A stretch of DNA of 64,000 nucleotides from the NCBI RefSeq assembly GCF_000211415.1, contig NZ_GL890777.1, positions 19,538 through 83,537 on the forward strand, in the 5' to 3' direction. A model generated the notes under the pieces. That model was given only the letters and a program-made list of their open reading frames with translations, was not told the DNA's origin and did not search any database. How positions within the stretch are numbered: position 1 is the first letter of the stretch; each line of letters starts with the position of its first letter. Below, piece by piece: positions 16,149-35,435 of the stretch. The stretch is from Enterobacter mori LMG 25706. Lineage in GTDB: Bacteria; Pseudomonadota; Gammaproteobacteria; Enterobacterales; Enterobacteriaceae. The translations under genes and the position numbers were made by a program.

Positions 16149-16501
16149 GTTATTAATTCTAGTGATAACATGGAGTTATCTGATTCAAATGTGGACTGAT
16201 TTGTAACGATTTGTGCTTGTTTCCGAGTCCATTTAGGACGACAATTAACGCCAGTTTTTCGAGTTGTCCAGTGCCGGCGATAGTCCAGTGGCAGACAACA
16301 AAAATGGAAGTTTCCAATCTCACTCAGTGCACTGGTAGCTGTTAAGCCAGGGGCGGTAGCGTGCCTAATTGTAAACGAAGGCTTTCGTGAAATCCCTGTT
16401 TGTGCGTAAAAATATCATGAGATCTATTGAGGCGACTTGAGTCAGTTAAATCTTACTCAAGCGGTTTTTATTGTAATAACTCGCAACCAACTGGATTAAA
16501 A
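16149..16501 (+). promoter_or_regulatory. O-antigen operon leader region
   Basis: No credible gene lies between galF and legB. The stretch after the galF terminator contains the expected O-antigen operon promoter, which could not be fixed to clear -35/-10 boxes, then the JUMPstart element, and about 140 bases of untranslated leader before the first gene. In-frame upstream extension of legB to a TTG at 16427 is possible but lacks family support. Confidence 0.7.
16325..16363 (+). promoter_or_regulatory. JUMPstart element with ops site (RfaH recruitment)
   Basis: The 39-base JUMPstart consensus is present in full, from cagtgcactggtagctgtta onward. It ends with the ops element ggcggtagcgtg at 16352-16363. 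In enterobacteria ops pauses RNA polymerase and recruits RfaH to suppress polarity in long surface-polysaccharide operons. Its position upstream of legB assigns the AT-rich operon downstream to RfaH control. Confidence 0.97.
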
Positions 16502-17692
16502 ATGGATAATATTCTCCAACTCATTGGGCGTAATAAAGCATTGTTCAGTGAAGATGTCTCAGGAAATGAAATAGAATTAAAGCGAATTGTTTCCGAATCT
16601 CGTTTTTTGGTGCTAGGTGGAGCGGGGTCTATTGGTCAGGCTGTTACTAAAGAAATATTTAAGCGTAACCCAAAAAAACTACACGTAGTTGATATAAGCG
16701 AAAACAATATGGTTGAATTGGTTCGTGATATCCGCAGTTCGTTTGGCTATATTGAAGGTGATTTTCAGACCTTTGCGCTTGATATCGGTTCTGTAGAGTA
16801 TGATGCGTTCATCAAAGCTGATGGTAAATATGACTACGTGCTGAATTTATCTGCACTTAAACATGTTCGGAGTGAGAAAGATCCCTTTACCCTGATGCGT
16901 ATGATTGAGGTCAATATCCTCAACACTGATAAAACCATTGAACAGTCTATTGCTGCGGGAGTTAAAAAATTCTTCTGCGTATCGACCGATAAGGCCGCGA
17001 ACCCGGTCAATATGATGGGTGCTTCAAAGCGTATTATGGAGATGTTCCTGATGCGTAAAAGCGAGCAAATCGCCATTTCAACCGCACGTTTCGCGAACGT
17101 TGCCTTTTCTGATGGCTCTCTTCTGCATGGGTTTAATCAACGCCTTCAGAAGCAGCAGCCGCTAGTGGCACCCAATGATATCAAACGTTACTTTGTTACT
17201 CCTCAGGAGTCCGGTGAGCTCTGTCTGATGTCATGTATTTTTGGTGATAATCGTGATATTTTCTTCCCTAAACTGAGCGAAGCACTGCATCTCATCTCTT
17301 TTGCCGATATTGCCGTCCTTTACCTTAAGCAACGTGGCTACGAACCTCACCTTTGTGAAAATGAAGATGAGGCTCGCGAGCTGGCGAAGACGTTACCAGC
17401 CGAAGGAAAGTGGCCATGCTTGTTTACTTCAAGCGATACAACCGGTGAGAAAGATTTTGAGGAATTTTTCACCGAAAATGAGATGCTCGATATGGAACGT
17501 TTTACCAACCTGGGCATCATTAAAAATGAACCGTTATATGACCCAGCTCTACTGTCCCATTTTGAAAAACGAATTGAAGAGATGAAAAAATCTTTGGAAT
17601 GGAATAAAGACGATATAGTTAAGCTGTTCTTTGAAATGATCCCTGACTTTGGTCATAAAGAAACAGGCAAATATCTCGATAGCAAAATGTAA
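16502..17692 (+). CDS. legB: Nucleotide-sugar 4,6-dehydratase, LegB type
   Basis: This is a 396-residue extended SDR of the FlaA1/CapD/PseB class, predicted to make a 4-keto-6-deoxy hexosamine nucleotide as the first step to legionaminic acid. Seen: GGAGSIGQAV near residues 38-47, SALKHVRSEKDP near 116, and STDKAANPVNMMGASK near 164, where the usual catalytic tyrosine of YxxxK is replaced by methionine as in the FlaA1/WbpM group. A C-terminal extension after about residue 300 makes it longer than PseB-like enzymes (about 330). The ATG at 16502 starts MDNILQLIG. It could also act on UDP-GlcNAc; the neighbouring PtmE homologue favours a GDP-sugar. Confidence 0.82.
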   Translation: MDNILQLIGRNKALFSEDVSGNEIELKRIVSESRFLVLGGAGSIGQAVTKEIFKRNPKKLHVVDISENNMVELVRDIRSSFGYIEGDFQTFALDIGSVEYDAFIKADGKYDYVLNLSALKHVRSEKDPFTLMRMIEVNILNTDKTIEQSIAAGVKKFFCVSTDKAANPVNMMGASKRIMEMFLMRKSEQIAISTARFANVAFSDGSLLHGFNQRLQKQQPLVAPNDIKRYFVTPQESGELCLMSCIFGDNRDIFFPKLSEALHLISFADIAVLYLKQRGYEPHLCENEDEARELAKTLPAEGKWPCLFTSSDTTGEKDFEEFFTENEMLDMERFTNLGIIKNEPLYDPALLSHFEKRIEEMKKSLEWNKDDIVKLFFEMIPDFGHKETGKYLDSKM

Positions 17693-17707
17693 GCAAGGCA
17701 TCCCCGA

Positions 17708-18850
17708 ATGAATATCAAATCAATTATCGAATTTGTTCGCGACGTATACAAGACGGATGAATTTATTCCTTTGCATGCGCCAATATTCAATGGCAACGAA
17801 AAAAATTATGTCTTGGATACACTGGACAGTACATTTGTATCAAGCGTCGGCAAATACGTCGATGATTTCGAGCGAAAGATGGAGTCATATACCGGAACGG
17901 CACGAGCTGTTGCAACGGTTAACGGAACGGCCGCTCTGAGTGCAGCGCTCTATCTTGCGGGTGTTAAGCGGGGCGATCTTGTCATCACCCAGGCATTAAC
18001 TTTTGTCGCAACCTGCAATGCTCTTTATCATCTTGGCGCGGAACCGGTATTTACCGATGTTTCCCCAATAAGCTTAGGCCTGTGTCCTGTCGCGCTTGAG
18101 GACTGGTTATCTGAAAACACTGAACTGACAGAACAAGGCTGCGTACACCGCAAAACGCGGCAGGTTGTGCGAGCTGTAGTGCCTATGCATACCTTCGGTC
18201 ATCCGGTTGAGCTTGATGAGCTTATTGCGGTATGTCAGAAGTGGCACCTTGTTCTTGTTGAGGATGCTGCAGAAAGTCTGGGATCATTCTACAAGGGCAA
18301 ACATACCGGTACGCTCGGTGAGTATGGTGCGCTAAGTTTCAATGGCAATAAAATTATTACCACTGGTGGCGGCGGAATGGTGTTCTGTCGTTCACCAGAA
18401 GCGGGCGTTCGTGCAAAGCATGTCACAACAACTGCTAAGGTGCCGCATCCTTATGAGTTTTATCACGATGAACCGGGTTTCAACTATCGCATGCCGAATC
18501 TTAACGCAGCGCTTGGCTGTGGGCAGATGGAACGCCTGGATTCTTTCCTGAAACAGAAGCGCGATTTGGCAAAGCGTTATGAAGCGTTCTTTGCAGGTTC
18601 AGAATTTAATTTTGTTAAAGAGCCAGACTATGCACAATCTAATTATTGGTTGAATGCTGTCATTTGCGAAAACCTGGATGCGCGTGATGCCATGCTGGCA
18701 GAAATGAACGACGCTAAAGTTATGGTCCGCCCAATCTGGAAACTAATGCATCGCTTGCCAATGTTTGAAAAGGCAATGCGTGATGACCTCAAAAATTCTG
18801 AACAGATCGAAGCTCGTTTGATCAATATACCTAGCTCTCCGATGGAATGA
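17708..18850 (+). CDS. legC: PLP-dependent aminotransferase, LegC type
   Basis: This 380-residue DegT/DnrJ/EryC1/StrS family enzyme is predicted to place the 4-amino group on the keto sugar made by LegB. Conserved features: FIPLHAPIFNGNEKNYV at the start, VNGTAALSAAL near residue 77, VEDAAESLGSFY near residue 185, and the PLP-binding lysine in SFNGNKIITTGGGG near residue 214. It follows legB by 15 bases and overlaps the next gene by four bases (ATGA). The order dehydratase then aminotransferase at the operon front is typical of legionaminic clusters. The end product (UDP- or GDP-linked) is inferred. Confidence 0.86.
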   Translation: MNIKSIIEFVRDVYKTDEFIPLHAPIFNGNEKNYVLDTLDSTFVSSVGKYVDDFERKMESYTGTARAVATVNGTAALSAALYLAGVKRGDLVITQALTFVATCNALYHLGAEPVFTDVSPISLGLCPVALEDWLSENTELTEQGCVHRKTRQVVRAVVPMHTFGHPVELDELIAVCQKWHLVLVEDAAESLGSFYKGKHTGTLGEYGALSFNGNKIITTGGGGMVFCRSPEAGVRAKHVTTTAKVPHPYEFYHDEPGFNYRMPNLNAALGCGQMERLDSFLKQKRDLAKRYEAFFAGSEFNFVKEPDYAQSNYWLNAVICENLDARDAMLAEMNDAKVMVRPIWKLMHRLPMFEKAMRDDLKNSEQIEARLINIPSSPME

Positions 18851-20019
18851 CAGAAATGGGATCAGCAAAACGCAAAGTAGCGGTATTCACAGGTACGCGT
18901 GCTGAATATGGCTTACTCTACTGGCTATTGAAAGATATCCAGGAGGACAACGAGCTGGAGCTTCAGCTACTCGTGAGTGGTATGCATCTCTCACCCGAGT
19001 TTGGAAATACCTGGCAGCAGATCGAGAAAGATGGATTTTTGATTGATGAAAAGATCGAAATTCTACTTTCTTCAGATACACCAGTAGGTACTGCGAAAAG
19101 TATGGGACTTGGGGTGTTGGGTTTTGCTGATGCTTTGAACAGATTAAAACCTGATGTTTTGGTCATACTCGGGGATCGTTTTGAAGCGCTTGCCGCAGCA
19201 CAAACGGCCATGATCCTTCGCATTCCCATCGTGCACCTGCATGGTGGCGAAATTACTGAAGGTGCTTATGATGATGCGATCCGACATGCGATAACAAAAC
19301 TAAGCTATTTACATGGGACCTCAACAGAGGTGTACCGGAATCGCGTTATACAGCTTGGTGAACATCCATCGCGTGTTGTTAACGTTGGTGCAATAGGGCT
19401 GGATCATCTTAAACGTGGGCATTTTATGTCCGTAGATGAATTAGGCCTGTCACTGAAATTTCCGCTTAAAAAGCCATTCTTGTTGGTGACATATCACCCT
19501 GTTACGCTGGGTAAAGAACCAGCAGAAGCGAGTTTTAATGCGTTATTAGCTGCACTTGATGAGTTCCCAGACCATCAGATCATCTTGACCTATCCCAATG
19601 CGGATGACGGTGGGAGAAAGATCATTCCATTGCTTGAAGCCTACGCGACTAAACAACCTGAGCGTGTGCTTGCGATTCCCTCGCTGGGTCAGGTGCGTTA
19701 TCTAAGTGCCGTGAAGCACGCTGCTGCTGTGGTGGGTAACTCCTCCAGCGGCATTATTGAAGTTCCTGCATTTGACGTTCCTACTGTAAACATCGGTGAC
19801 AGGCCAAAAGGTCGACTGGCTGCCCTTAGTGTGTTGAATTGTACTGCGACGACAGAATCGATAACCCAAGCTTTACATGTTGCAGTGTCGCGCAGTTACA
19901 AAAATCGCGATGAAGACATTGTGAATCCATATGGCCAGGGGAATGCAAGTTCAAAAATCATTGAAATGATAAAGTCCATGCATTTTGTTCCCGGTAAGAC
20001 CTTTTACGATATTAAGTGA
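18847..20019 (+). CDS. legG: Hydrolysing nucleotide-sugar 2-epimerase, NeuC/LegG type
   Basis: This 390-residue enzyme inverts C2 and releases the nucleotide, giving 2,4-diacetamido-2,4,6-trideoxymannose, the substrate for the NeuB homologue. Typical NeuC/WecB-like motifs are GTRAEYGLLYWLL near residue 16, LGDRFEALAAAQ near residue 106, HLHGGEITEGAYDD near residue 127 (the NeuC form), and GNSSSGIIEVPAF near residue 298. A NeuC-type epimerase rather than a PseG-type nucleotidase is the main argument for legionaminic over pseudaminic acid. The start ATG overlaps the legC stop. Confidence 0.88.
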   Translation: MTEMGSAKRKVAVFTGTRAEYGLLYWLLKDIQEDNELELQLLVSGMHLSPEFGNTWQQIEKDGFLIDEKIEILLSSDTPVGTAKSMGLGVLGFADALNRLKPDVLVILGDRFEALAAAQTAMILRIPIVHLHGGEITEGAYDDAIRHAITKLSYLHGTSTEVYRNRVIQLGEHPSRVVNVGAIGLDHLKRGHFMSVDELGLSLKFPLKKPFLLVTYHPVTLGKEPAEASFNALLAALDEFPDHQIILTYPNADDGGRKIIPLLEAYATKQPERVLAIPSLGQVRYLSAVKHAAAVVGNSSSGIIEVPAFDVPTVNIGDRPKGRLAALSVLNCTATTESITQALHVAVSRSYKNRDEDIVNPYGQGNASSKIIEMIKSMHFVPGKTFYDIK

Positions 20020-20025
20020 AACTCT

Positions 20026-21099
20026 ATGACGCTTATCATTGCTGAAGCCGGTGTTAATCACAACGGCAACGAAAAACTGGCTTTTGAACTTGTTGATGCT
20101 GCTTACAAGGCCGGGGCTGATATTGTTAAATTCCAGACATTTAAAGCGAAGAACCTTGTGACTGAACAGGCGAAGCAGGCCGATTATCAGGTTGCGAATA
20201 CTCAACGGCAGGAATCGCAGCTAGACATGTTGAGCCGCCTTGAGTTGTCCTGGGAAACGCATCATGCATTGATTAAGCATTGTAACGAATTGGGAATAGA
20301 ATTTCTCTCTACGGCCTTTGACTCAGAAAGCCTGAATTTTTTGGTCAATGAACTGGGGATCAAACGCTTAAAATTACCTTCTGGTGAACTCACCAATGCC
20401 CCTCTGGTGCTTGAGCATGCCAGGACTGGTTGTGACATTATCGTATCAACGGGTATGGCCACCCTTTCTGAAATAGAAGCTGCATTGGGCGTGATCGCTT
20501 TTGGGTATACCTGTTCAGAGGGTGTTGTACCTTGTACCACCGCCTTTGAAAGTGCATATGCAAGCCTCGAAGGACAGAAGGCTCTGAAAGAAAAGGTAAC
20601 TATCCTTCACTGCACAACTGAATATCCTGCGCCAATGAACGAGATTAACCTTAGGGCAATGGATTCCTTAAGAGAAGCGTTCGACCTGCCTGCTGGTTAT
20701 TCCGATCACAGTGAAGGTATAACTATTCCTATCGCAGCAGTTGCACGAGGTGCGGTGATCGTTGAGAAACATTTCACCTTAGACAAAAACATGGAAGGTC
20801 CTGATCATAAAGCCTCACTGGAGCCTGACGAGTTGGCAGCAATGGTGAAAGCTATCCGGCAGATTGAAGTTGCGTTAGGAAACAAAGTTAAAAAACCAAC
20901 TGTTTCAGAAATAAAAAACAAGTCGGTTGCAAGAAAAAGTCTGGTAGCCGCAAAGAAGATCAGTGCGGGAGAACCTTTCACATCATCGAATATTACGATC
21001 AAAAGACCTGGAAACGGTATGTCGCCTTATAGCTACTGGGATATGCTGGAGAAATTATCGACAAAAGAGTATTTACCGGGAGACTTGATTATTGAATAA
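20026..21099 (+). CDS. legI: Nonulosonic acid synthase, NeuB/LegI type
   Basis: This 357-residue sialic acid synthase family enzyme condenses phosphoenolpyruvate with the 6-deoxy-diacetamido hexose to make legionaminic acid. The N-terminal TIM barrel starts LIIAEAGVNHNGNEKLA and holds VKFQTFKAKNL near residue 45 and YSDHSEGI near residue 225. A C-terminal SAF (antifreeze-like) domain follows from about residue 290 (RKSLVAAKKISAGEPFT). It could act on N-acetylmannosamine (making Neu5Ac), but legB, legC and the ptmE homologue would then have no role. Confidence 0.9.
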   Translation: MTLIIAEAGVNHNGNEKLAFELVDAAYKAGADIVKFQTFKAKNLVTEQAKQADYQVANTQRQESQLDMLSRLELSWETHHALIKHCNELGIEFLSTAFDSESLNFLVNELGIKRLKLPSGELTNAPLVLEHARTGCDIIVSTGMATLSEIEAALGVIAFGYTCSEGVVPCTTAFESAYASLEGQKALKEKVTILHCTTEYPAPMNEINLRAMDSLREAFDLPAGYSDHSEGITIPIAAVARGAVIVEKHFTLDKNMEGPDHKASLEPDELAAMVKAIRQIEVALGNKVKKPTVSEIKNKSVARKSLVAAKKISAGEPFTSSNITIKRPGNGMSPYSYWDMLEKLSTKEYLPGDLIIE

Positions 21100-21727
21100 C
21101 AAACCTGTCGTTCTAATAGGCGGTGGTGGGCATGCCAGTGTACTTCTTGATATTCTGCATTCAAATAAGCGTGATGTTATTGCCGTCGTGAGCCCACAGG
21201 ACGTTTCAGAACGGTCGATTTTTTCAGGATTGAAAATACTACACTCAGATGACGATATCTTCCATTACTCAAGTGAAGACATCGAATTAGCTAACGGCAT
21301 TGGTTTGATTCCGCGATCATCACTCAGAAAGAATGTCTCAGAATTCTATGTTTCTCATGGATACCGGTTTGCAAGCATTATTGCGCCAGATGCATTAATA
21401 TCAACACACGCCATCCTCACTGATGGCGTGCAGATTCTTTCCGGAGCGATAGTAAACGCAGGGACTACTATAGGTTGTCATTCAATCATTAATACCCGAG
21501 CAGTTATTGAGCACGATTGTCATTTAGGTGATTACTGTTTTATTGGTCCTGGAGCGGTGCTATGTGGTCAAGTAAACACCGGTGAATCAGTATTTGTTGG
21601 AGCGGGTTCCACAATAGTTCCAGGAATGAAACTAGGAAGTAACTCTATAGTGGGTGCAGGTGCCCTATTGGTACAGTCATTAGAAAATGGACAAGTTTGT
21701 TATCCGGCAAGATCGGTAATCAAATAA
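21092..21727 (+). CDS. legH: Sugar N-acetyltransferase, NeuD/LegH type
   Basis: This 211-residue PglD/NeuD-like acetyltransferase has an N-terminal Rossmann-like domain (VLIGGGGHASVLLDIL near residues 7-22) and a left-handed beta-helix of hexapeptide repeats (about 95-205). In this context it most likely acetylates the 4-amino sugar made by LegC. O-acetylation of the finished acid, as NeuD does in some sialic clusters, is the alternative. It starts with TTG at 21092, eight bases before the end of the upstream synthase. No ATG or GTG fits the family N-terminus, and a GGGAG site nine bases upstream supports the TTG. Confidence 0.82.
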   Translation: MNNKPVVLIGGGGHASVLLDILHSNKRDVIAVVSPQDVSERSIFSGLKILHSDDDIFHYSSEDIELANGIGLIPRSSLRKNVSEFYVSHGYRFASIIAPDALISTHAILTDGVQILSGAIVNAGTTIGCHSIINTRAVIEHDCHLGDYCFIGPGAVLCGQVNTGESVFVGAGSTIVPGMKLGSNSIVGAGALLVQSLENGQVCYPARSVIK

Positions 21728-21747
21728 TGTCTTACAAAAGGTAATTC

Positions 21748-22806
21748 ATGATGCAGCATTGGAAAAATGTGCTGATCCGACCGGACAGTACACTGCGTGA
21801 AGCTCTAGAAATTATTAACCGTGAGGCTCTACGCGTCGCATTAGTTATTGATGATAATAACTACCTGTTAGGCGTTATCACTGATGGTGACATCAGAAGA
21901 GGACTACTGAATAATCTGGTTCTTTCAGCAAAAGCTGAGTTGGTAATGAATACTCAGCCTGTTACAGCGGCAAGTAACGTTTCTTCTGCTGAATTAAATT
22001 CAATGATGAAAGCAAAAGGAATTTTGTCTATACCCATTCTTGATGATGGGAAAGTTGTTGGTCTGGAAACTATCCAGTCAGTAAATGACAAGAAAAAATA
22101 TCCAAACCCTGTCTTTATTATGGCCGGTGGTTTTGGAACAAGGTTAAAACCTTTAACTGATACCTGCCCAAAACCTATGCTGTGTATAGGCGGGAAGCCA
22201 ATATTAGAAACTGTTATTCGTAGTTTTGTTAAGGCAGGCTTCAATAATTTCTATATTTCTACGCACTATATGCCTGAAACCATCAAAGAACATTTTGGCG
22301 ATGGTGAACGTTTTGATTCCAAAATTAATTATGTCTATGAGGAAAACCCTTTAGGTACAGGTGGTGCTTTAGGTTTGCTGCCTGAGGATTTATCTAATGA
22401 TCATCCTTTAATTATGATTAATGGGGACGTCTTGACCAATGTCGATTATGAGCGTTTGATCAAATTTCACATTGAAAGCAAAGCGGATGCAACAATGTGT
22501 GTACGAGAATACGACTACCAAATTCCTTATGGTGTTATCAAAGGAGAAGGTAATAAAATCGTATCGATGGAAGAGAAACCTGTACAAAGATTTTTTGTCA
22601 ATGCAGGTATTTATGTCGTTTCACCAAACATTTTTAAAGCCGTTCCGAAAAATCATCGTGTTGATATGCCAACTCTACTTGAACAGCATATGGCTAATAA
22701 CAAAAACATTCTTATGTTCCCAATACATGAGTACTGGCTGGATATCGGACGAATGGATGATTTCAAAAAAGCTCAGGTTGATTACTTTACCTTAGGTTTA
22801 GATTGA
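21748..22806 (+). CDS. ptmE: Sugar-1-phosphate nucleotidyltransferase with CBS pair, PtmE type
   Basis: This 352-residue two-part protein has an N-terminal CBS-domain pair (about 1-115, with VIDDNNYLLGVITDGDIRRG) and a C-terminal nucleotidyltransferase domain beginning FIMAGGFGTRLKPLTD near residue 125. The same architecture occurs in Campylobacter PtmE, a glucosamine-1-phosphate guanylyltransferase that supplies the GDP-sugar entry to legionaminic acid. That function is inferred here from architecture and neighbours. Two adjacent ATGs (21748, 21751) are possible starts. The stop codon shares one base with the next start. Confidence 0.78.
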   Translation: MMQHWKNVLIRPDSTLREALEIINREALRVALVIDDNNYLLGVITDGDIRRGLLNNLVLSAKAELVMNTQPVTAASNVSSAELNSMMKAKGILSIPILDDGKVVGLETIQSVNDKKKYPNPVFIMAGGFGTRLKPLTDTCPKPMLCIGGKPILETVIRSFVKAGFNNFYISTHYMPETIKEHFGDGERFDSKINYVYEENPLGTGGALGLLPEDLSNDHPLIMINGDVLTNVDYERLIKFHIESKADATMCVREYDYQIPYGVIKGEGNKIVSMEEKPVQRFFVNAGIYVVSPNIFKAVPKNHRVDMPTLLEQHMANNKNILMFPIHEYWLDIGRMDDFKKAQVDYFTLGLD

Positions 22807-23768
22807 TGAAAGCAGCAGCAGTCATAGGATTAGGTAATATTGCAGACAGGCATCGTCGTAATCTTAAAACACTTTATCCAGGCATTAAAGTTTATGCGAT
22901 GTCTGCTTCTGGCCGTAAAGTTCAGGATGGAATAGATAATTGCGATCAGGTTGTAAATACTTTACCTGAACTCTTAAACGCTGTAGATATGGCAATCATT
23001 GCATCACCCGCAACCCTGCATGCTGAGCACGCCATACCCTTTATCAAAGCAGGCGTACCTGTTTTAATTGAAAAACCCGTTACAGTCTCGCTCCCTGACG
23101 CAGAAGCATTGCTGGATGCTGCAACTCGTTTTAACACCGTCGTTGCTGTTGGATATTGTTTGCGATATCTACCCTCTGCACTTTCAGTAAAAAAGGTATT
23201 AGAAGAGAAAAAAGCGGGCACGATTTTCAATGCATTTGTTGAGATAGGACAGTATCTGCCAGACTGGCGCGCGAGAAAAAACTATAAAGACAGCGTCTCA
23301 GCGAGTAAAGCCCTGGGGGGGGGAGCACTCCTCGAGTTAAGCCATGAATTCGATTACACGCGTTGGCTTTTCGGTGAGTTAGATGTTATTCATGCTTCAG
23401 TTCGTAATTGTGGTGTATTAGATATTGATGCCGAAGAAATTGCTGATATTGTTACCATCTCAAAAGATAACGTGATTATCAATATTCACCTTGATTTCCT
23501 GCAAAGAAAAGCATTTAGAAAGTGTAATTTGTTAGGCACGAATGGCCGTATTGAATGGGATCTGATTAACAATCAAGTCAAAATAATTAACAAATCAGAT
23601 GAGTGCCTAGTATATAATGAGCCTCAATATGATAAAAATAAAATGTATTTGGATATGCTAAAGGACTTTGAAAATTATATGCATGGACGTGATAATCAAT
23701 GCATCACTTTGACAGATGCAATTAAAACGTTAGCATTGATTAATAATATTAAAGGAACGGCAGAATAG
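22806..23768 (+). CDS. Gfo/Idh/MocA-family oxidoreductase (PtmF-position gene)
   Basis: This is a 320-residue NAD(P)-dependent sugar oxidoreductase with AAVIGLGNIADRHRRNL at the N-terminus (Rossmann GxGxxA form), the EKPVTVSL segment near residue 94 containing the family EKP motif, and GGGALLELSHEFDYTRWL near residue 169 with the catalytic-type histidine and aspartate. The ATG at 22806 overlaps the ptmE stop by one base. It occupies the same place as the oxidoreductase between PtmE and the CMP-transferase in Campylobacter legionaminic clusters as recalled. Its substrate is not known from sequence. A redox step on a sugar precursor, or C-8 epimerisation together with the SDR at 24473, are possibilities. 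Confidence 0.75.
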   Translation: MKAAAVIGLGNIADRHRRNLKTLYPGIKVYAMSASGRKVQDGIDNCDQVVNTLPELLNAVDMAIIASPATLHAEHAIPFIKAGVPVLIEKPVTVSLPDAEALLDAATRFNTVVAVGYCLRYLPSALSVKKVLEEKKAGTIFNAFVEIGQYLPDWRARKNYKDSVSASKALGGGALLELSHEFDYTRWLFGELDVIHASVRNCGVLDIDAEEIADIVTISKDNVIINIHLDFLQRKAFRKCNLLGTNGRIEWDLINNQVKIINKSDECLVYNEPQYDKNKMYLDMLKDFENYMHGRDNQCITLTDAIKTLALINNIKGTAE

Positions 23769-23769
23769 A

Positions 23770-24489
23770 ATGAAAAATTATGCATTTATATTCGCTCGTG
23801 GTGGTTCTAAAGGACTTCCTGGTAAAAATGTTAAAGAGTTATTAGGTAAACCACTGTTACATTATGCACTCGATATTGCTCAACAGTCTCCATCAATCGA
23901 TAAGGTATTCGTTTCAACAGATGATGCTGAGATAAAAGAAAAAGCATTAGAATTAAAAGACGTCGTTGTCATTGACAGGCCTGATGATCTGTCTGGAGAC
24001 AAAAGTCCGGAATGGTTTGCATGGCGACACGCAATTGGCTGGGTAACAGAGCATTATGGAGAATTTGATCAATTCATCAGTCTTCCTGCGACAAGTCCCC
24101 TGCGTGAAGTGCAGGATGTAGAATGCGCCATTGCAAAACGTGTTCAAACGAAGGCTGATATCTGTATTGCCGTAACACCAGCATCACGCAGTCCCTATTT
24201 TAATATGGTTAAGATTAACCGAGAAGGCATGAACCAACTGGTGATAAGCCCTGAGGGTGATGTCAGTAGACGTCAGGATTGTCCCGATGTGTTTGATATC
24301 ACTACAGTAGTTTATGTTTCAACACCAGAATTCATCCTCAATAATGTTGGGTTATTCTCTGGGACGGTTACTTCGATAGAAGTACCCAAAGAAAGAGCTG
24401 TAGATATAGATGATATTTATGATTTTTATATGGCTGAAACAATTCTGAAAAGAAAAAAGAGATCCACTAAAAATGTTACTAGAAAATAA
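23770..24489 (+). CDS. legF: CMP-nonulosonate cytidylyltransferase, NeuA/LegF type
   Basis: This 239-residue enzyme activates the nine-carbon acid with CTP, giving the CMP-sugar donor. FARGGSKGLPGKNVKEL near residues 8-24 is the signature of CMP-sialate synthetases. SLPATSPLRE near residue 98 and RRQDCPDVFDITTVVYV near residue 165 are further conserved stretches. It lies one base after the oxidoreductase and overlaps the following SDR gene by 17 bases. Preference for legionaminic over N-acetylneuraminic acid is inferred from the pathway genes around it. Confidence 0.86.
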   Translation: MKNYAFIFARGGSKGLPGKNVKELLGKPLLHYALDIAQQSPSIDKVFVSTDDAEIKEKALELKDVVVIDRPDDLSGDKSPEWFAWRHAIGWVTEHYGEFDQFISLPATSPLREVQDVECAIAKRVQTKADICIAVTPASRSPYFNMVKINREGMNQLVISPEGDVSRRQDCPDVFDITTVVYVSTPEFILNNVGLFSGTVTSIEVPKERAVDIDDIYDFYMAETILKRKKRSTKNVTRK

Positions 24490-25240
24490 AAAGATTATTG
24501 TTTTGGGTGCTGGTGGGCTTTTAGGAGCTTGTTTAACGAAAGCATGTATTGAAAATGGAGCTAAGGTCATTGCTGTTGATCTTGATATCAATCATATTAA
24601 GAGCAAATTACAGGCCCAGGGCGTAGTAACCTCTTCTGATGCCGATATCACTTATGCTGAAGTAGATGTGACTAATGAACAGTCTGTCATGGACTTTTTT
24701 AACAGCCTCGTAAATATTGACGGAATTGTCAATGCTACCTATCCAAGAAATAAATCGTATGGTAGCAAATTATTTGATGTTAGTCTTGCTAGTTTCAACG
24801 AAAACTTATCTTTGCATTTGGGCAGTTCATTTTTAATTAGTCAGCAAGCCGCAAAATTATTCTTGCGTCTAAAATCCCCGCTGTCTATGGTCAATATATC
24901 TTCAATATATGGTGTTATTGCCCCTAAGTTTGGTATTTACGATAATACACAAATGACAATGCCGGTAGAATATGCTGCGATAAAATCAGCATTATTGCAT
25001 TTGAATAAATATATAGTTACCTATGTTAATGATAGTGGATTCAGAATTAACTCTGTTAGTCCTGGTGGGATTTTTGACAACCAGCCAGCAGCATTTTGTG
25101 AAGCATATAGAAAGAATACTCACGGAGCGGGGATGCTGGATGTAACTGAAATGACAGGATCAATTGTTTTTCTTCTTTCAGAACAATCAAGATATGTCAC
25201 AGGTCAAAATATTATAGTTGATGATGGCTTTTCACTCTAA
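24473..25240 (+). CDS. Short-chain dehydrogenase (PtmA-like)
   Basis: This is a 255-residue classical SDR. IIVLGAGGLLGACLTKA near residue 8 is the cofactor-binding motif, NISSIYG near residue 140 holds the catalytic serine, YAAIK near residue 163 is YxxxK, and the C-terminus GQNIIVDDGFSL is typical of the family. It overlaps the cytidylyltransferase gene by 17 bases and ends the nonulosonate block. Campylobacter PtmA, also an SDR next to the CMP-transferase gene, is the nearest recalled analogue. The exact reaction is unresolved; see the finding on the oxidoreductase pair. Confidence 0.76.
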   Translation: MLLENKKIIVLGAGGLLGACLTKACIENGAKVIAVDLDINHIKSKLQAQGVVTSSDADITYAEVDVTNEQSVMDFFNSLVNIDGIVNATYPRNKSYGSKLFDVSLASFNENLSLHLGSSFLISQQAAKLFLRLKSPLSMVNISSIYGVIAPKFGIYDNTQMTMPVEYAAIKSALLHLNKYIVTYVNDSGFRINSVSPGGIFDNQPAAFCEAYRKNTHGAGMLDVTEMTGSIVFLLSEQSRYVTGQNIIVDDGFSL

Positions 25241-25334: not shown

Positions 25335-26924
25335 ATGTTTTCTAAAATAAAAACGATTCTTCGCTATCTTATGCCCTATCAGCCAGATGTTATTGAAAAT
25401 AAGTTTGTGGAGTTGAACAGTAAATTATGGAAGGCAGAGCCATTAAAAACCCAGACTGATACCGATAATAAATCATTTTGTCTGGTTGAGGGCATTATTG
25501 CCTGCCCGGCCAGTATCATGGATAAAGCAAGGATAGCAAAGGCCATACAGCAAGAAACAGGCTCCGAACCAGTCGTTTTTGTTCGCGGCTTTAATATTGC
25601 AGGGAGTAATGTAAGTCACATATATCAATCCTTTAATATTAATCATTTCTATTGCTGGTGGCGTGGGTTCTTTCATCCGAAAGTCTTTATCCCAGCTATA
25701 GTTGCTACTTCGAAAATAATGTTAGGGGCCAGGTCTGGAGAGGCATTAATCAATTTGAACTACCGAGGTGTGGATATTGGGGATCTTATCTACGATACTT
25801 TAATTCGATTTCGACCAAACGAATACACGGTAAAAAAAATACAATTTAAGCATCTGAGATTGATTTTTAGATCTTTTTTGACATTTCATAATAATGAACT
25901 AATGTTGGCTAAATACAACCCAAAATACCTTGTGACAAGCCACAATGTGTATGCTGAATTTGGCATGCTACCACGTCAGATAAGACATCATAATGCTGGG
26001 GTTATATTCCTCAAGGATATTTATGCTTATAAGTGTTACGGTTCTCAAATTAATGTTAAAGAACACTTTCTTAAGCCAGATTATGAAGGGTTTTTACTGA
26101 ATCTTAAATCAAGCGAATACGTCAACAAGGCGCATAAATACTTTCATGATCGCCTTGAAGGCAATGTCGATCAAATAGATGTAAAAAATGCATTTAAAAA
26201 TAAAAAGAAATATAGCATAGAACAATTGAAAGCGATCTACCCAAGCATTGATACTGAAAAGAAAAATGTTGTTGTTATGTCCCATGCATTTTCAGATTCT
26301 CCACATGTTGGAGAGGGGCTACTATTCAATGACTATTATGATTTCCTTGAGAAAACATTAATTCGACTTAATAAAAATACTAATATCAATTGTTTTGTAA
26401 AAGCACATCCCAGTTCTTATATGTGGAATGAAAAAGGAGGTGTTGAGAGTTTGATTGAAGCTAATAAATTGGATCATATCCATATGATGCCGGTCGACTT
26501 GAATACCAATTCTATTGCAGATTTTGCCGATATTATCGTGACGGCGAAAGGGACTGCTGGTCTGGAATTTTCATGTCTAGGTATTCCCGCTGTAACTGCT
26601 GGAAAAGGATATTATGCTGGGTTCGGTATTACACTTGAACCTGAATCTGTGGAATTATATTATGATATTTTAGACTCGGTTTCGGATCTGACAAATCTTA
26701 GTGACGAAACTCGACAACGAGCCATGGTATTGCTTTATATGGTTTCTTTAAGCAGGAGACATTCTGCAATTCTGCCTAAACAGCACATCATGCCACATGA
26801 AAATTATAGTGACGTCTATCTTGATAAATACAAAGAAATCATTGCTAATATCGAAAGTGAAATCCCAATACGTGATGAATTCTATCAGGAGATTATTAAG
26901 GATGTGGTGAAAAATCATGTTTAA
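25335..26924 (+). CDS. Putative glycosyltransferase, candidate nonulosonic acid transferase
   Basis: This 529-residue protein has no close named relative that I recognise. The C-terminal half resembles GT-B enzymes of the capsule-polysaccharide group (KpsC/KpsS-like): VVVMSHAFSD near residue 315, VKAHPSSY near residue 355 with the His-Pro pair shared by that group and by bacterial sialyltransferases, and TAKGTAGLEFSCLGIPAV near residue 398, a Ser/Thr-Gly donor-site loop. There is no signal peptide or obvious membrane segment, so a cytoplasmic or peripheral enzyme is likely. It directly follows the CMP-sugar genes and overlaps wzx by eight bases. Transfer of the CMP-activated acid to the O-unit is inferred. 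Confidence 0.65.
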   Translation: MFSKIKTILRYLMPYQPDVIENKFVELNSKLWKAEPLKTQTDTDNKSFCLVEGIIACPASIMDKARIAKAIQQETGSEPVVFVRGFNIAGSNVSHIYQSFNINHFYCWWRGFFHPKVFIPAIVATSKIMLGARSGEALINLNYRGVDIGDLIYDTLIRFRPNEYTVKKIQFKHLRLIFRSFLTFHNNELMLAKYNPKYLVTSHNVYAEFGMLPRQIRHHNAGVIFLKDIYAYKCYGSQINVKEHFLKPDYEGFLLNLKSSEYVNKAHKYFHDRLEGNVDQIDVKNAFKNKKKYSIEQLKAIYPSIDTEKKNVVVMSHAFSDSPHVGEGLLFNDYYDFLEKTLIRLNKNTNINCFVKAHPSSYMWNEKGGVESLIEANKLDHIHMMPVDLNTNSIADFADIIVTAKGTAGLEFSCLGIPAVTAGKGYYAGFGITLEPESVELYYDILDSVSDLTNLSDETRQRAMVLLYMVSLSRRHSAILPKQHIMPHENYSDVYLDKYKEIIANIESEIPIRDEFYQEIIKDVVKNHV

Positions 26925-28119
26925 AAAGGGCTTGTTATATATACTCGTAAATTATGCCATTCAATTTATTAATATATTTCTTAGCCTGGTCATGATGAAA
27001 TATCTTCCAACTGCCCAGCTTGGAGATCTTGCACTTGCAAGAACATGGCAGCAGTTCGTCGATTACTCACACCTTGGCTCTCGTTTTTCTTTAGACCGCT
27101 TTATTCCGTTAAGCAAAAATAGGGAAAAAAAATTATTAGTTACAACAGTATTGCTAACGAATATTATAGGGGCATTAACTGTTCTAATAGTTGCATTAAT
27201 TTTCAACCATTCCAATATTACTGTGCTTATTCTTACTCTTTGTGGATTATTCATTTCGATTAGCAATATTGTTAAAGCTTATTATCGAGCAACTAATCGG
27301 ATCGATGAAATGTTATGGCTTGTGATATATTCACAATTTCTGCCAGTTCTTCTTCCGCTTATTATATATATAATTACACATAGTTTTGAAATTTATCTTT
27401 ACACAAGTTTAGGATGTTATGGATTAGCTATAATAAGATTATATCGGATTGAAAGGAATTTAAAAAAGTATCTTATCCTGAAATTATTGTTTAATAGATT
27501 GAAATTCTTATTTAAACCTTCTCTTTTGTTATTTTTAAACGCAATTTTCACTTTCCTATACCTTGTTATGGATAGATTTTTTATTGATGGCACAGGTGGT
27601 CGTGATCAGTTGGGCAATTTTAGTGTTATCATATTTGCTTTCAGCGCGCTTATGATTATACCTTCAACTTGTGCTGAGTTGCTTTTCGTCAAAGTTATTA
27701 AACAGTGTAGTCAGACTGGAAGATGTTTATTCATTAAAGAATGTCTTATTATGTTTTCTGTTACTCTGTTGGGTGTGATAATTGCGAATGTAGTAATGAA
27801 GTTTTTCATTGAAAACTTCACAAAATATGGATATCTTATTCCTGAATTACATTTAGCCACTCTTGCTGTAATTCCCTTTGCATTTACAGCAATTTACTAT
27901 CATGTGATGAATGGATTAGATCTTCGTAAGCAAATGGTAGCTGTTAGTGCTGCGGTCTGTCTTATTTTAATTGCGTATTATTGTATTCCTGTGTTCACTC
28001 ATGTGAAATTTGAGCTTCATGATTATTTGTATGCGAAGCTGGCAACAGGATGGTTAGTATTGCTTGGCTATGTTTTTTTTATTTTGCGTGTAAAAATTGG
28101 TGCGCATCATAAAAAATAA
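26917..28119 (+). CDS. wzx: O-unit flippase Wzx
   Basis: This is a 400-residue, very hydrophobic protein with about 11-12 membrane segments over its length, in the pattern of MOP-superfamily flippases. It starts LLYILVNYAIQFINIFLSLV with the first helix and has the loop YRATNRIDEMLW near residue 123. Codon use and base composition are strongly AT-rich, as usual for wzx and unlike the colanic wzxC at 9599. It overlaps the preceding transferase gene by eight bases. The role is flipping lipid-linked O-units across the inner membrane. Wzx rather than Wzy is judged from the helix distribution and soluble loops. Confidence 0.85.
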   Translation: MFKKGLLYILVNYAIQFINIFLSLVMMKYLPTAQLGDLALARTWQQFVDYSHLGSRFSLDRFIPLSKNREKKLLVTTVLLTNIIGALTVLIVALIFNHSNITVLILTLCGLFISISNIVKAYYRATNRIDEMLWLVIYSQFLPVLLPLIIYIITHSFEIYLYTSLGCYGLAIIRLYRIERNLKKYLILKLLFNRLKFLFKPSLLLFLNAIFTFLYLVMDRFFIDGTGGRDQLGNFSVIIFAFSALMIIPSTCAELLFVKVIKQCSQTGRCLFIKECLIMFSVTLLGVIIANVVMKFFIENFTKYGYLIPELHLATLAVIPFAFTAIYYHVMNGLDLRKQMVAVSAAVCLILIAYYCIPVFTHVKFELHDYLYAKLATGWLVLLGYVFFILRVKIGAHHKK

Positions 28120-28138
28120 ATTCTCGGTAGAATTTAAT

Positions 28139-29395
28139 ATGATCTCAATTGCTTTCTTCGTACTAGCCCTAACCATTTATTCACTAATAGTATTTAAAAC
28201 AAAAGATATAATTCATCCCATAGGTATTGGGATCATCTTTTGGTTTTTTTCTGCATCTCTTTCCACAATAGATGTTCTTTATGATCCTCAGTTGCAGTCA
28301 GAGTTAAGTTTTGAGACGCTAGCGGCTATTTTTCTTGCTGGCTTATTCTTTACGCTTCCTTTTTTATTCTCAAAGAGAATAGATAAAGCTATTTTTAGTT
28401 ATCAGCGGTTCGATTTTAATCTTATCTATCGCGTAGTATTTAACTTTATCGTCCTTTTATCTATAATTACATTTTTAATGCGATTTGGTACGATGCTAAC
28501 TCACCCTCCGCTCCTCTCCGGTGCCGGTAGTGATTTGAAATCATTGGTTCCTAATGCGCCTCCGTTATTAAATTTTATCGATGTATCTATGCCGTACATC
28601 GCTCTGACTGCTCTTTTCGAACTCAAATACTCATATCGACTAAGACGCGGACGAAGGATTCTACTTATTTTCTTTGCCATTTTCACAATTGTTGCTGCGT
28701 TAATTTATAAAGTTTCCAGAGGCGAGTTTTTAGTATTTATGATGGGTGCTATTTATATTCTTTTAATTCCACGTAAAATTACCTTAGGATTCAAGCAATT
28801 AATGATGGTAATGCTGCCGATGGCGCTACTCTTATATATTGGTGCAATGCGAATTTCTGAAACAAGCCGTGCATCAACTCAATTTGGCGAGGGAGTGGCG
28901 AATTCGCTCTTCAGTCAAATTTACACCTATGTGGCAATGAACTTCCAGAATCTGAATTTGCTGGTTAATTCATCTTTCGAACCGACTTATATATGGGGAG
29001 GGCTTAAGTTTTTACTCAAACCATTCTTTGGTTCTTATTATGATAATAACTCAATAGGTTTCTCGGATTATGAAGTTAGTTTTTTCAATGCCAAAACCTT
29101 TATCTACTATTTTTATAACGACCTAGGATTGGCTGGGGTGATAATTTATTCATTTGTAATTGGTCTTTTGCTTCAGGTGATTTATAACAAAACGGCTTGC
29201 AATGTTAAGTATTGTCTTTTACAGGCATGCTTTATGAAGGCTATTATTTTTATGTTGTTCGGTAATTATTTTTTTGGAGAGTTTGTGTTAATTATCCCTT
29301 ACGGCATTGTACTTTTCCTTTTACTGCTTATTCCTAAAGTCGAAGTTAAGAGGATAGAAGCTAAACCTATCCCTAATCATTTCAATAATAATTAA
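28139..29395 (+). CDS. wzy: O-antigen polymerase Wzy
   Basis: This is a 418-residue integral membrane protein with about 10-12 predicted helices and a larger periplasmic loop (about residues 245-305, including the ESRASTQFGEGVANS-like region), the usual Wzy layout. It has no strong sequence signature, as expected for polymerases. Position next to wzx and AT-rich composition support the call. ATG at 28139 was chosen. An in-frame TTG at 28097 would overlap wzx by 23 bases and add 14 polar residues, and cannot be excluded. Confidence 0.82.
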   Translation: MISIAFFVLALTIYSLIVFKTKDIIHPIGIGIIFWFFSASLSTIDVLYDPQLQSELSFETLAAIFLAGLFFTLPFLFSKRIDKAIFSYQRFDFNLIYRVVFNFIVLLSIITFLMRFGTMLTHPPLLSGAGSDLKSLVPNAPPLLNFIDVSMPYIALTALFELKYSYRLRRGRRILLIFFAIFTIVAALIYKVSRGEFLVFMMGAIYILLIPRKITLGFKQLMMVMLPMALLLYIGAMRISETSRASTQFGEGVANSLFSQIYTYVAMNFQNLNLLVNSSFEPTYIWGGLKFLLKPFFGSYYDNNSIGFSDYEVSFFNAKTFIYYFYNDLGLAGVIIYSFVIGLLLQVIYNKTACNVKYCLLQACFMKAIIFMLFGNYFFGEFVLIIPYGIVLFLLLLIPKVEVKRIEAKPIPNHFNNN

Positions 29396-29448
29396 TGAGT
29401 ATTTATGGCAGGAAGATATCTAAGCTATTTCAGTAAAAGGACATATTG

Positions 29449-30549
29449 ATGAGTTTGCTGATTAATGCATCGAACCTGTATGTAGGTGGTGGTGTTCAGG
29501 TCGCAGTTTCTGTATTAGAGGAATTAACTAATTCTAAGCGACAGTTTATTGCAGCGGTTTCCCCCTTAGTTGCAAGACAACTTTCGGAAGCAGCATTGAT
29601 AAATTGTCTAATCATTGACAAGACACCATCAAATATTTTTAACTTTAAATCAAGAAGAACCTTAGATAAAATAGTAGCTGAAAATAACATCAGCAAGGTG
29701 TTCACTATTTTTGGCCCCAGTTACTGGAACCCCAAAGGCGTTAAACATGCCGTAGGCTTTGCTTTGCCATGGTTGATTTATGATACACGCCGAGTGTTTT
29801 CTAAATTGACTTTTGCTGAAAAAGCAAAGAAAATTTTATTAATGTGGTTACAGCCTTATTTCTTTAAAAAAAATGCAGACCTTATCTTTGTTGAAACCGA
29901 CGATGCTAAAGATAAAATTATTGAGCGTTATCATTTTCCGCAGAGTCATGTCGTCACTGTTTCAAATACTATAAATGCGATTCTTCAAAACGCTAAATTA
30001 TATGATAATAGCGTCATTAGCTCTTTACCGGTAAAGGAGGACGGTGATGTTTACCTTTTGACAATATCACATGATTATCCGCACAAAAATTTAAATGTTA
30101 TTCCTATGTTACTCGACAGATTGCCTAGTAATTATAAGTTCGTAGTTACGCTGCGTACTCCAATGGAAAATATCCCACAGCAATACCAGCATCGTATAAT
30201 TAACGTCGGCCCAATCAAAGTTAATCAATGCCCGGCGTTATATCATTTTTGTGATGCTCTATTTTTACCTACGTTACTGGAATGCTTTAGTGCCAGTTAT
30301 GTAGAGGCTATGTATTTCAAAAAAACTATCTTTACATCAGATTTATCGTTTGCGCATACAGTATGCCATGATAGCGCATTCTACTTCGATCCCTATTGTG
30401 TTAATGATATCTGCGATAAGATCATTTCCGGGATGGAGAATGTGAAGGATAGAGCGATAAAACAAGAAAAGGCCGATCAGCTTTTTTGCCAGCTACCAAC
30501 GGCGAGGGAAAGGGCCTTAATGTATATGCACAGTATTGACAAGTTATAA
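29449..30549 (+). CDS. Glycosyltransferase family 4
   Basis: This is a 366-residue GT-B enzyme. The N-terminus SLLINASNLYVGGGVQVAVS has the glycine-rich acceptor loop. LLTISHDYPHKNLNVIPMLL near residue 204 is the start of the donor domain. LLECFSASYVEAM near residue 283 gives the EX7E pattern. It follows wzy after 53 bases and has AAAAGGA upstream of the ATG at 29449 (a TTG one codon earlier is less likely). It should add an internal sugar of the O-unit, whose identity is not visible. It is the last of the AT-rich genes before the fnl module. Confidence 0.83.
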   Translation: MSLLINASNLYVGGGVQVAVSVLEELTNSKRQFIAAVSPLVARQLSEAALINCLIIDKTPSNIFNFKSRRTLDKIVAENNISKVFTIFGPSYWNPKGVKHAVGFALPWLIYDTRRVFSKLTFAEKAKKILLMWLQPYFFKKNADLIFVETDDAKDKIIERYHFPQSHVVTVSNTINAILQNAKLYDNSVISSLPVKEDGDVYLLTISHDYPHKNLNVIPMLLDRLPSNYKFVVTLRTPMENIPQQYQHRIINVGPIKVNQCPALYHFCDALFLPTLLECFSASYVEAMYFKKTIFTSDLSFAHTVCHDSAFYFDPYCVNDICDKIISGMENVKDRAIKQEKADQLFCQLPTARERALMYMHSIDKL

Positions 30550-30569: not shown

Positions 30570-31604
30570 ATGTTTTCAGATAAAGTGCTTTTGATTACTG
30601 GTGGTACAGGTTCATTTGGCAATGCGGTATTAAAACGATTTCTTAATACCGATATTAAAGAAATTCGAGTTTTCTCGCGCGATGAAAAAAAGCAAGACGA
30701 TATGCGCAAGAAATATAATAGTGAGAAACTTAAATTTTATATAGGGGATGTGAGGGATTATCGCAGTATTCTCAATGCCAGTCGTGGCGCTGACTTCATC
30801 TACCACGCCGCAGCACTTAAACAAGCGCCATCATGCGAGTTCCATCCGATGGAGGCAGTTAAGACTAACGTCCTCGGAACTGAAAATGTTCTTGAAGCTG
30901 CGATTGCCAACGAAGTTAAACGTGTCGTTTGCTTAAGCACTGATAAAGCTGTTTATCCTATCAATGCTATGGGTATTTCGAAAGCAATGATGGAAAAAGT
31001 GATGGTCGCAAAATCACGTAATGTTAATAGCGACAAAACTGTGATTTGCGGTACTCGTTACGGCAACGTGATGGCTTCCCGTGGTTCAGTCATTCCCTTG
31101 TTCGTTGATCTGATCAAAGCGGGTAAGGCGCTGACGATCACTGACCCAAATATGACCCGTTTCATGATGACGCTTGAAGATGCTGTTGATTTGGTCCTAT
31201 ATGCGTTTGAGCATGGCAATAATGGTGATATTTTTGTTCAAAAAGCACCAGCCGCAACGATTGAAACATTAGCTATTGCTCTGAAAGAGCTTCTTTACGT
31301 TGAGCAACATCCCGTCAATGTTATCGGTACGCGGCATGGTGAGAAACTTTATGAAGCGCTGCTCAGCCGTGAAGAGATGATTGCCGCCATCGACATGGGT
31401 GATTATTACCGTGTTCCACCTGACCTGCGCGATCTTAACTATGGAAAATATGTTGAACAAGGTGATAGCCGTATCTCTGTTGTTGAGGATTATAACTCGC
31501 ACAATACGCAGAGACTGGATGTTGAAGGGATGAAAACACTTCTTCTGAAATTACCATTTATTCGCGCATTGCGCGCGGGTGAACATTACGATCTGGACGC
31601 CTGA
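30570..31604 (+). CDS. fnlA: UDP-GlcNAc 4,6-dehydratase/5-epimerase FnlA
   Basis: This 344-residue enzyme starts UDP-L-FucNAc synthesis from UDP-GlcNAc (C4,6-dehydration with C5 and C3 epimerisation steps). LITGGTGSFGNAVLKRFL near residue 8 is the NADP motif. HAAALKQAPSCEFHPMEA near residue 78 and STDKAVYPINAMGISK near residue 130 carry the family signature, with Met in place of the YxxxK tyrosine. Length and order fit the FnlA/WbjB/CapE group. It begins the fnlABC-wbuBC module, visibly less AT-rich than the genes before it, with one base to fnlB. Confidence 0.93.
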   Translation: MFSDKVLLITGGTGSFGNAVLKRFLNTDIKEIRVFSRDEKKQDDMRKKYNSEKLKFYIGDVRDYRSILNASRGADFIYHAAALKQAPSCEFHPMEAVKTNVLGTENVLEAAIANEVKRVVCLSTDKAVYPINAMGISKAMMEKVMVAKSRNVNSDKTVICGTRYGNVMASRGSVIPLFVDLIKAGKALTITDPNMTRFMMTLEDAVDLVLYAFEHGNNGDIFVQKAPAATIETLAIALKELLYVEQHPVNVIGTRHGEKLYEALLSREEMIAAIDMGDYYRVPPDLRDLNYGKYVEQGDSRISVVEDYNSHNTQRLDVEGMKTLLLKLPFIRALRAGEHYDLDA

Positions 31605-31605
31605 C

Positions 31606-35050: not shown

Positions 35051-35435
35051 TACTCATCAGCTTGAAGCCTTATACGAACAAGCCAGGCATTCTGCACGCT
35101 TGCGCGCTCATCTTCTAATGCATAACTCACACCAGGATAAAGTGCAGAGGTTGCTCATTGCTCTGGTTCAGGGCAGTTATGTCGACCCGCATTTCCACGA
35201 ACTCCCTCATCAATGGGAAATGTTTATCGTTATCCAAGGGCAAGTGCAGGTTTGCTTGTATGGCAAAGATGGCGAAATAATTAATCAGTTTGTCGCCGGA
35301 GAGAATACGGCAATAAACGTAGTCGAGTTTTCTCCGGGTGATATACACAGTGTTGAATGTCTATCTCCGAGAGCACTAATGATGGAAGTGAAAGAGGGAC
35401 CTTTTGATCCTTCCTTTGCCAAGGCGTTCATCTAA
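35037..35435 (+). CDS. wbuC: WbuC family cupin metalloprotein
   Basis: This is a 132-residue small cupin with the metal-binding segment VDPHFHELPHQWEMFIVIQG near residue 43 and a second histidine in FSPGDIHSVEC near residue 100. WbuC regularly follows wbuB in clusters with L-FucNAc, yet its reaction is not established. A role in FucNAc synthesis or its control is only inferred from linkage. Its start lies 14 bases before the wbuB stop. It is the last gene of the O-antigen block before gnd. Confidence 0.88.
   Translation: MRLIDTHQLEALYEQARHSARLRAHLLMHNSHQDKVQRLLIALVQGSYVDPHFHELPHQWEMFIVIQGQVQVCLYGKDGEIINQFVAGENTAINVVEFSPGDIHSVECLSPRALMMEVKEGPFDPSFAKAFI

Follow-up and report, generated by a model that had tools for sequence, protein, structure and literature searches.

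The O-antigens of Escherichia coli O108 and O61 have been published as containing 5,7-diacetamido-8-epilegionaminic acid (8eLeg5Ac7Ac), according to titles cited in PMC3628348 and, for O61, also to a passage of that paper. In Acinetobacter baumannii an excerpt of PMC9676051 assigns the genes lgaABCDEFG to legionaminic acid (Leg) and lgaABCDEF together with elaABC to 8-epilegionaminic acid (8eLeg), ElaA being a putative oxidoreductase. Pseudaminic acid (Pse) is converted in vivo to its 8-epimer (8ePse) by EpaA, which has cytidine monophosphate (CMP)-transferase and reductase domains, and EpaB, a short-chain dehydrogenase/reductase (SDR), as stated in part of PMC12053666, and 8eLeg5Am7Ac has been reported from Aliivibrio salmonicida together with a NeuA pseudogene (excerpt of PMC7371886). 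Here we analyzed a stretch of 64,000 nucleotides from Enterobacter mori LMG 25706 (genome of 4.96 Mb in 23 contigs; contig NZ_GL890777.1, positions 19,538 to 83,537 of the forward strand), called the window below and numbered from its first letter. Nine consecutive genes at 16502-25240 are predicted from their sequences to make CMP-8eLeg, and the last three of them, encoding a Gfo/Idh/MocA dehydrogenase (Gfo), a CMP-transferase and an SDR, form a cassette which probably inverts C8 and activates the product.

The nine open reading frames (ORFs) are open, consecutive and on the + strand, and neighbours overlap or are separated by at most 20 bases. They begin with a LegB-like dehydratase (Elg1-like; Polysacc_synt_2; 16502-17692; 95% identical to the O108 protein), a LegC-family pyridoxal phosphate aminotransferase (DegT_DnrJ_EryC1; 17708-18850; NCBIfam TIGR04181, 531.3 bits against a cut-off of 420), a NeuC-type hydrolysing epimerase (LegG-like; Epimerase_2; 18847-20019; TIGR03568, 477 bits against 236) and a NeuB-type synthase (LegI-like; NeuB and SAF; 20026-21099; NeuB/NnaB model TIGR03569, 498 bits against 400). 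These are followed by a NeuD/PglD-type acetyltransferase with a TTG start and a predicted LegH role (PglD_N/Hexapep; 21092-21727; NeuD model TIGR03570, 193 bits against 161) and a PtmE-like protein (CBS and NTP_transferase; 21748-22806). The cassette completes the series with Gfo (GFO_IDH_MocA; TTG start; 22803-23768), the CMP-transferase of O108 (Elg7) type (CTP_transf_3; 23770-24489) and the SDR (adh_short_C2; 24473-25240), whose only NCBIfam pass is the unnamed oxidoreductase model NF006619 (337 bits against 255). The dehydratase, PtmE-like protein, Gfo and CMP-transferase have no NCBIfam model over cut-off, and the Pfam domains of the dehydratase, PtmE-like protein and CMP-transferase are as expected. 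The models of the Pse pathway all stay below their cut-offs (PseC 206 against 424, PseI 262 against 340 and PseF 116 against 206 bits; PseB also under), and that pathway was rejected on this basis. With its aminotransferase, epimerase and synthase over the curated cut-offs, the nine-gene module is assigned to the Leg type of nonulosonic acid pathway and to neither the Pse nor the N-acetylneuraminic acid type; this agrees with the first-pass annotation, which had described nine consecutive genes of a Leg-type module at the head of the O-antigen operon.

The whole galF-gnd locus aligns with the E. coli O108 cluster at 81% DNA identity over 100% of the query. Every gene from galF to gnd is present in the same order, and the 20 proteins compared (20/20) are 76-97% identical, Wzx and Wzy being 82%. 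Among 5426 E. coli genomes, five matched the whole locus; each of these is listed with O108 wzx/wzy, and one was opened. The comparison with enterobacterial O-antigen loci proposed in the first-pass annotation thus returns the same genes in the same order with orthologous wzx/wzy, in another genus. Since the locus is collinear with that of O108 and the O108 sugar is published as 8eLeg, the predicted sugar of the window, from its genes alone, is 8eLeg5Ac7Ac, and an O108-like O-unit carrying it rather than plain Leg is the most economical reading. The earlier description had named a Leg-type sugar, which stands, and had left the isomer as one of two enterobacterial options; the O108-type locus points to 8eLeg.

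Two further E. coli clusters of published sugar help the comparison. The O61 cluster (published sugar 8eLeg) has the nine sugar genes in the same order but no fnlABC, different transferases, wzx and wzy, and cassette proteins that are just 50-65% identical. The O161 cluster (published sugar Leg) shares LegB, LegC, NeuB, NeuC, the PtmE-like protein and a CMP-transferase, whereas it is without Gfo or SDR, its CMP-transferase is of a different type and another acyltransferase-like gene replaces NeuD. The two published 8eLeg makers thus carry the cassette and the published Leg maker does not. Because the identical nine-gene order recurs in O108, O61 and other gamma-proteobacterial loci, the arrangement is not due to chance. 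A further search gave 23 E. coli genomes with a match, of which five were opened, one per type seen. A second E. coli type, seen in four genomes (H6-H9, of which one was opened: L002, 2995-20472), likewise carries these nine genes together with fnlABC, but its flippase and polymerase bear no O-type name in the record; it is perhaps an unnamed O-type. The Leg-type cluster of E. coli NT1F31 (L024, 12780-19800) is without the cassette; it lies among insertion sequence elements, with pppA and sslE about 8.7 kb away, and adjoins neither galF nor gnd in the stretch shown.

The distribution of the cassette was counted in two sets of loci. The first set consisted of the best 80 of the loci of 305 LegC relatives, the window and five E. 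coli loci (86 in all), scanned with each window protein at a Gfo threshold of 100 bits; its counts exclude seven loci without a detected CMP-transferase (L039, L040, L041, L063, L065, L071 and L089), which leaves 79. A CMP-transferase of the window/O108 type, scoring 243-534 bits to that of the window, is found in 30 of these 79, and Gfo lies directly before it in 30/30. The SDR is present in 29 of the 30, in 28 of them directly after the CMP-transferase with the trio uninterrupted (the window and 27 others); the exceptions are L053, with an extra ORF before the SDR, and L048, with no SDR before the contig end. In the other 49 loci the CMP-transferase is of another kind, scoring no more than 119 bits against that of the window, and Gfo is found in 0/49 at the 100-bit threshold. 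For the second set, LegC was found in 52 of 394 genomes of the same taxonomic order (the window's own included) and all 53 other loci were fetched; 34 of them were new, and 19 were dropped because their LegC matched one of the first set at 99% identity or more. Here all 13 loci with an O108-type CMP-transferase have the complete cassette in the same order, and none of the 19 with another CMP-transferase has Gfo or SDR at threshold; two of the 34 are without a CMP-transferase. A class-wide search gave a cassette-like SDR in 5 of 369 genomes, the window's own included; among the other four matches, L120 has the full nine-gene order, L121 looks like L073 again (same scores), and L122 and L123 contain no more than remote relatives of Gfo and SDR. 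Within the window's genus this Gfo occurs in 2 of 61 genomes searched, again including the window's own, and close relatives of Gfo and SDR come from Enterobacter cloacae (90-91% identical).

The EKP and GG-H-D motifs of Gfo are present in all 30 cassette loci. Of the 29 SDRs, 27 show the full SDR motif pattern; those of L073 and L075 do not, but they retain YxxxK, as does the window SDR. The Gfo model has a predicted local distance difference test score (pLDDT) of 95. PDB sequence searches with the three cassette proteins returned distant relatives only at the E-value limits set.

Trees of the enzymes indicate that these three genes have moved together. They were built by a quick method on 79 rows (LegG 75, NeuD 61), and the figures are fewest changes of the cassette label rather than dated events. 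The label changes 21 times on the LegB tree, 19 on LegC, 17 on LegG, 18 on LegI, 17 on NeuD and 14 on PtmE, with a shuffled mean of 20-25 (24.6 for LegB), and once on the CMP-transferase tree, where the 30 split off with support 99. A single clade of the 30 cassette carriers is rejected for both the LegC and the PtmE trees. Several CMP-transferase residues fully separate cassette from non-cassette loci, and in the six upstream enzymes no residue does so, the largest frequency difference per enzyme being 0.33-0.54. Among 27 cassette-carrying loci the three cassette proteins are correlated in their distances with one another (0.76-0.80) and less closely with LegB, LegC and LegG (0.24-0.55); the correlations with the cassette are 0.62-0.64 for LegI, 0.67-0.75 for PtmE and 0.70-0.86 for NeuD, the highest being NeuD with Gfo. 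Such a pattern would be expected if the 3′ end of the module had been replaced repeatedly, the break points apparently not always falling at Gfo. As judged from these trees, the module is a mosaic: its backbones differ, and on them the last three genes have been exchanged together.

In the mechanism we propose, the six core genes would build Leg. The hydroxyl at C8 would then be oxidised by one dehydrogenase of the cassette, the resulting ketone would be reduced by the second from the other side, and the 8-epimer so formed would be the substrate of the accompanying CMP-transferase. As it is the CMP-transferase and not the synthase that changes together with the Gfo-SDR pair, the inversion would come later than the synthase step, either ahead of CMP activation or during it; a simpler alternative, for this timing only, is that the CMP-transferase lies between Gfo and SDR and merely hitch-hikes. 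Two described systems resemble such a step. In the A. baumannii ela set, as given in the excerpt of PMC9676051, the core Leg genes are retained and lgaG is replaced by three genes including an oxidoreductase, but the product is capsule rather than O-antigen and elaABC is likened here to the cassette by its description; the window SDR is 66-67% identical to A. baumannii SDRs and its CMP-transferase 68-69% identical to those of Acinetobacter. The EpaA-EpaB pair, in the part of PMC12053666 concerned, likewise combines a CMP-transferase domain with two reductases, one of them an SDR, and works on C8 of a nonulosonic acid. It differs in that the other reductase is an aldo-keto reductase, not a Gfo/Idh protein, and is fused to the CMP-transferase, and in that the pair acts on Pse and is prophage-borne. 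The chance is about even that the three genes are a C8-epimerase cassette of general occurrence, exchanged horizontally, which replaces a plain CMP-transferase and so turns a Leg locus into an 8eLeg locus; that its presence predicts the isomer from sequence; and that several sugars named Leg on mass or gene content alone, the Plesiomonas flagellin sugar among them, are in fact 8eLeg.

Other explanations were weighed against this late inversion of C8. Gfo and SDR might act early and supply the GDP-linked hexosamine, with the configuration of C8 set elsewhere. The Gfo gene follows the PtmE-like gene, GnnA, WlbA and similar UDP-sugar dehydrogenases are among the best structural matches of the Gfo model, and Campylobacter PtmF is regarded as an early-step enzyme; for PtmA, PMC4481668 gives a place in the first, GDP-sugar, segment of the pathway, which also weighs against the late step. 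Yet 49 of the 79 Leg-type loci, E. coli O161 included, have the PtmE-like gene and other core genes without Gfo, and the presence of the cassette tracks the late CMP-transferase (one change) and not PtmE (14 changes), which makes early action unlikely. The dehydratase could instead invert C5 of the hexose (the future C8) in the manner of PseB or FnlA, with no need of late epimerisation. Its Polysacc_synt_2 family does have inverting members, and the NCBIfam model that it matches best is that of FnlA (94.7 bits, well short of the cut-off of 730); but the LegB active-site motif is the same in 49/49 loci without the cassette (O161 included) and in 28 of 30 with it, the two others having one conservative change, and the largest frequency difference of any LegB residue is 0.33. 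The dehydratase was therefore rejected as the stereochemical switch and is the least likely of the explanations, at very long odds, as no residue or motif separates the groups and the LegB tree does not follow the cassette. That the sugar is plain Leg, and the Gfo-SDR pair alters another position or another residue of the O-unit, is improbable though less so: against it stand the collinearity of the entire O108 locus, with its orthologous transferases, Wzx and Wzy, and the 8eLeg published for O108. In its favour, L076 and L098 have other oxidoreductase sets behind other CMP-transferases, and organisms with homologous pairs are reported as Leg makers, as described below.

Several observations weigh against C8 inversion by the cassette or against its generality. 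Just three of the loci examined (O61, O108 and O161) carry a published sugar. L069 has a cassette-like SDR beside a different CMP-transferase, and in L122 and L123 other CMP-transferases have neighbours that are distantly similar to Gfo (61 and 42 bits) and to the SDR (215 and 206 bits). In view of these distant genes and of the oxidoreductase sets of L076 and L098, the cassette rule is strict for the close family only. Campylobacter, with its PtmF and PtmA homologues, is reported to make Leg. According to the homology table of PMC4481668, PtmF and PtmA are 46% and 36% identical to the Plesiomonas cassette homologues, and Plesiomonas shigelloides 302-73, which carries the cassette by that table, has a flagellar sugar called Leg there. 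Yersinia ruckeri ATCC 29473 (L034) also carries the cassette, and the passages seen of papers on Y. ruckeri serotype O1 say legionaminic acid with the isomer unnamed. A text search of PMC4481668 found neither "NMR" (nuclear magnetic resonance) nor "8-epi", so that the Plesiomonas sugar may be either isomer. There are three ways to account for these reports: the Campylobacter enzymes may have another role, the product may be decided by the Elg7-type CMP-transferase, or C8 inversion by the cassette may be wrong. In the loci concerned we also observed that in L076 (15053-18277) and L098 (15400-18607) two SDRs behind another CMP-transferase flank a protein of 323-325 aa, with a Gfo/Idh domain in L076; this site may hold an alternative set of modifying enzymes. 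In L069 (16669-20280) the genes behind the other CMP-transferase encode a class III aminotransferase, a CN_hydrolase and the cassette-like SDR, with no Gfo.

The gene order ptmE-ptmF-ptmB-ptmA of Campylobacter is taken here from the first-pass annotation, and PtmF and PtmA are related to Gfo and SDR (homology table of PMC4481668). The window SDR, in contrast, is under the cut-off of the PtmA equivalog NF050062 (199.8 bits against 350), and Campylobacter coli LegF is just 31% identical to the Plesiomonas Elg7-like protein in the same table. A PtmA-family control search gave matches in 14 of 14 control genomes, none over cut-off, and is uninformative. Among the relatives found, which include no Campylobacter sequence, enterobacterial O-antigen loci stand closest (E. 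coli O108, 76-97% for each protein; Lelliottia LegC, 92%), and import of an intact Campylobacter block, as first suggested, is therefore not supported for a module that is a mosaic with its last three genes exchanged. An ancient link to Campylobacter may exist.

The sugar genes sit between galF, which is upstream, and gnd. An exact ops 12-mer match lies at 16352-16363 on the + strand (chance expectation 0.36 matches at up to one mismatch), within a longer JUMPstart region which we take to span 16325-16363; the ops/JUMPstart element is where RfaH acts in O-antigen operons. The G+C content is 0.36-0.47 in the nine sugar genes and 0.32-0.47 across LegB to wbuC, against 0.57-0.59 at 9-14 kb. Downstream, with names taken from the collinear O108 record and all on the + strand, come a Capsule_synth-family glycosyltransferase (PF05159; 25335-26924), wzx (flippase; 26917-28119), wzy (polymerase; 28097-29395), a glycosyltransferase (29446-30549; 76% to the O108 protein), fnlA-fnlB-fnlC (30570-33839; 92-97%), predicted to make UDP-N-acetyl-L-fucosamine, a second glycosyltransferase, of family 4 (33839-35050; 89%), wbuC (35037-35435; 83%) and gnd. 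The Capsule_synth-type transferase is found in 6 of the 86 loci (window, L001, L029, L032, L045 and L079), all with the cassette, and L123 has a weaker relative; it likely adds 8eLeg to the O-unit. Its model has a pLDDT of 82 (5 sequences), and as its Foldseek matches (TM 0.16-0.26) are too weak, no donor is named. Beyond gnd, at 37050-39016, the translations show rmlB-like and rmlA-like genes between gnd and ugd, with no adjoining rmlC or rmlD in the stretch listed.

The locus is of a known type, the O108-type O-antigen cluster, here outside E. coli, and the reading of the three-gene cassette is new here. A Gfo-CMP-transferase-SDR block as a C8-inverting unit in enterobacteria was not found in searches of the open-licence PMC literature, among which the Acinetobacter papers come closest (excerpt of PMC9676051); the original O61, O108 and O161 papers may have proposed it. 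The cassette reading makes the early-step assignment of Campylobacter PtmA (and PtmF) directly testable. If the cassette inverts C8, the role of both oxidoreductases in the O61 and O108 clusters would be explained, and a stereochemistry which is invisible to mass spectrometry alone would become predictable from sequence across enterobacteria, vibrios and shewanellas.

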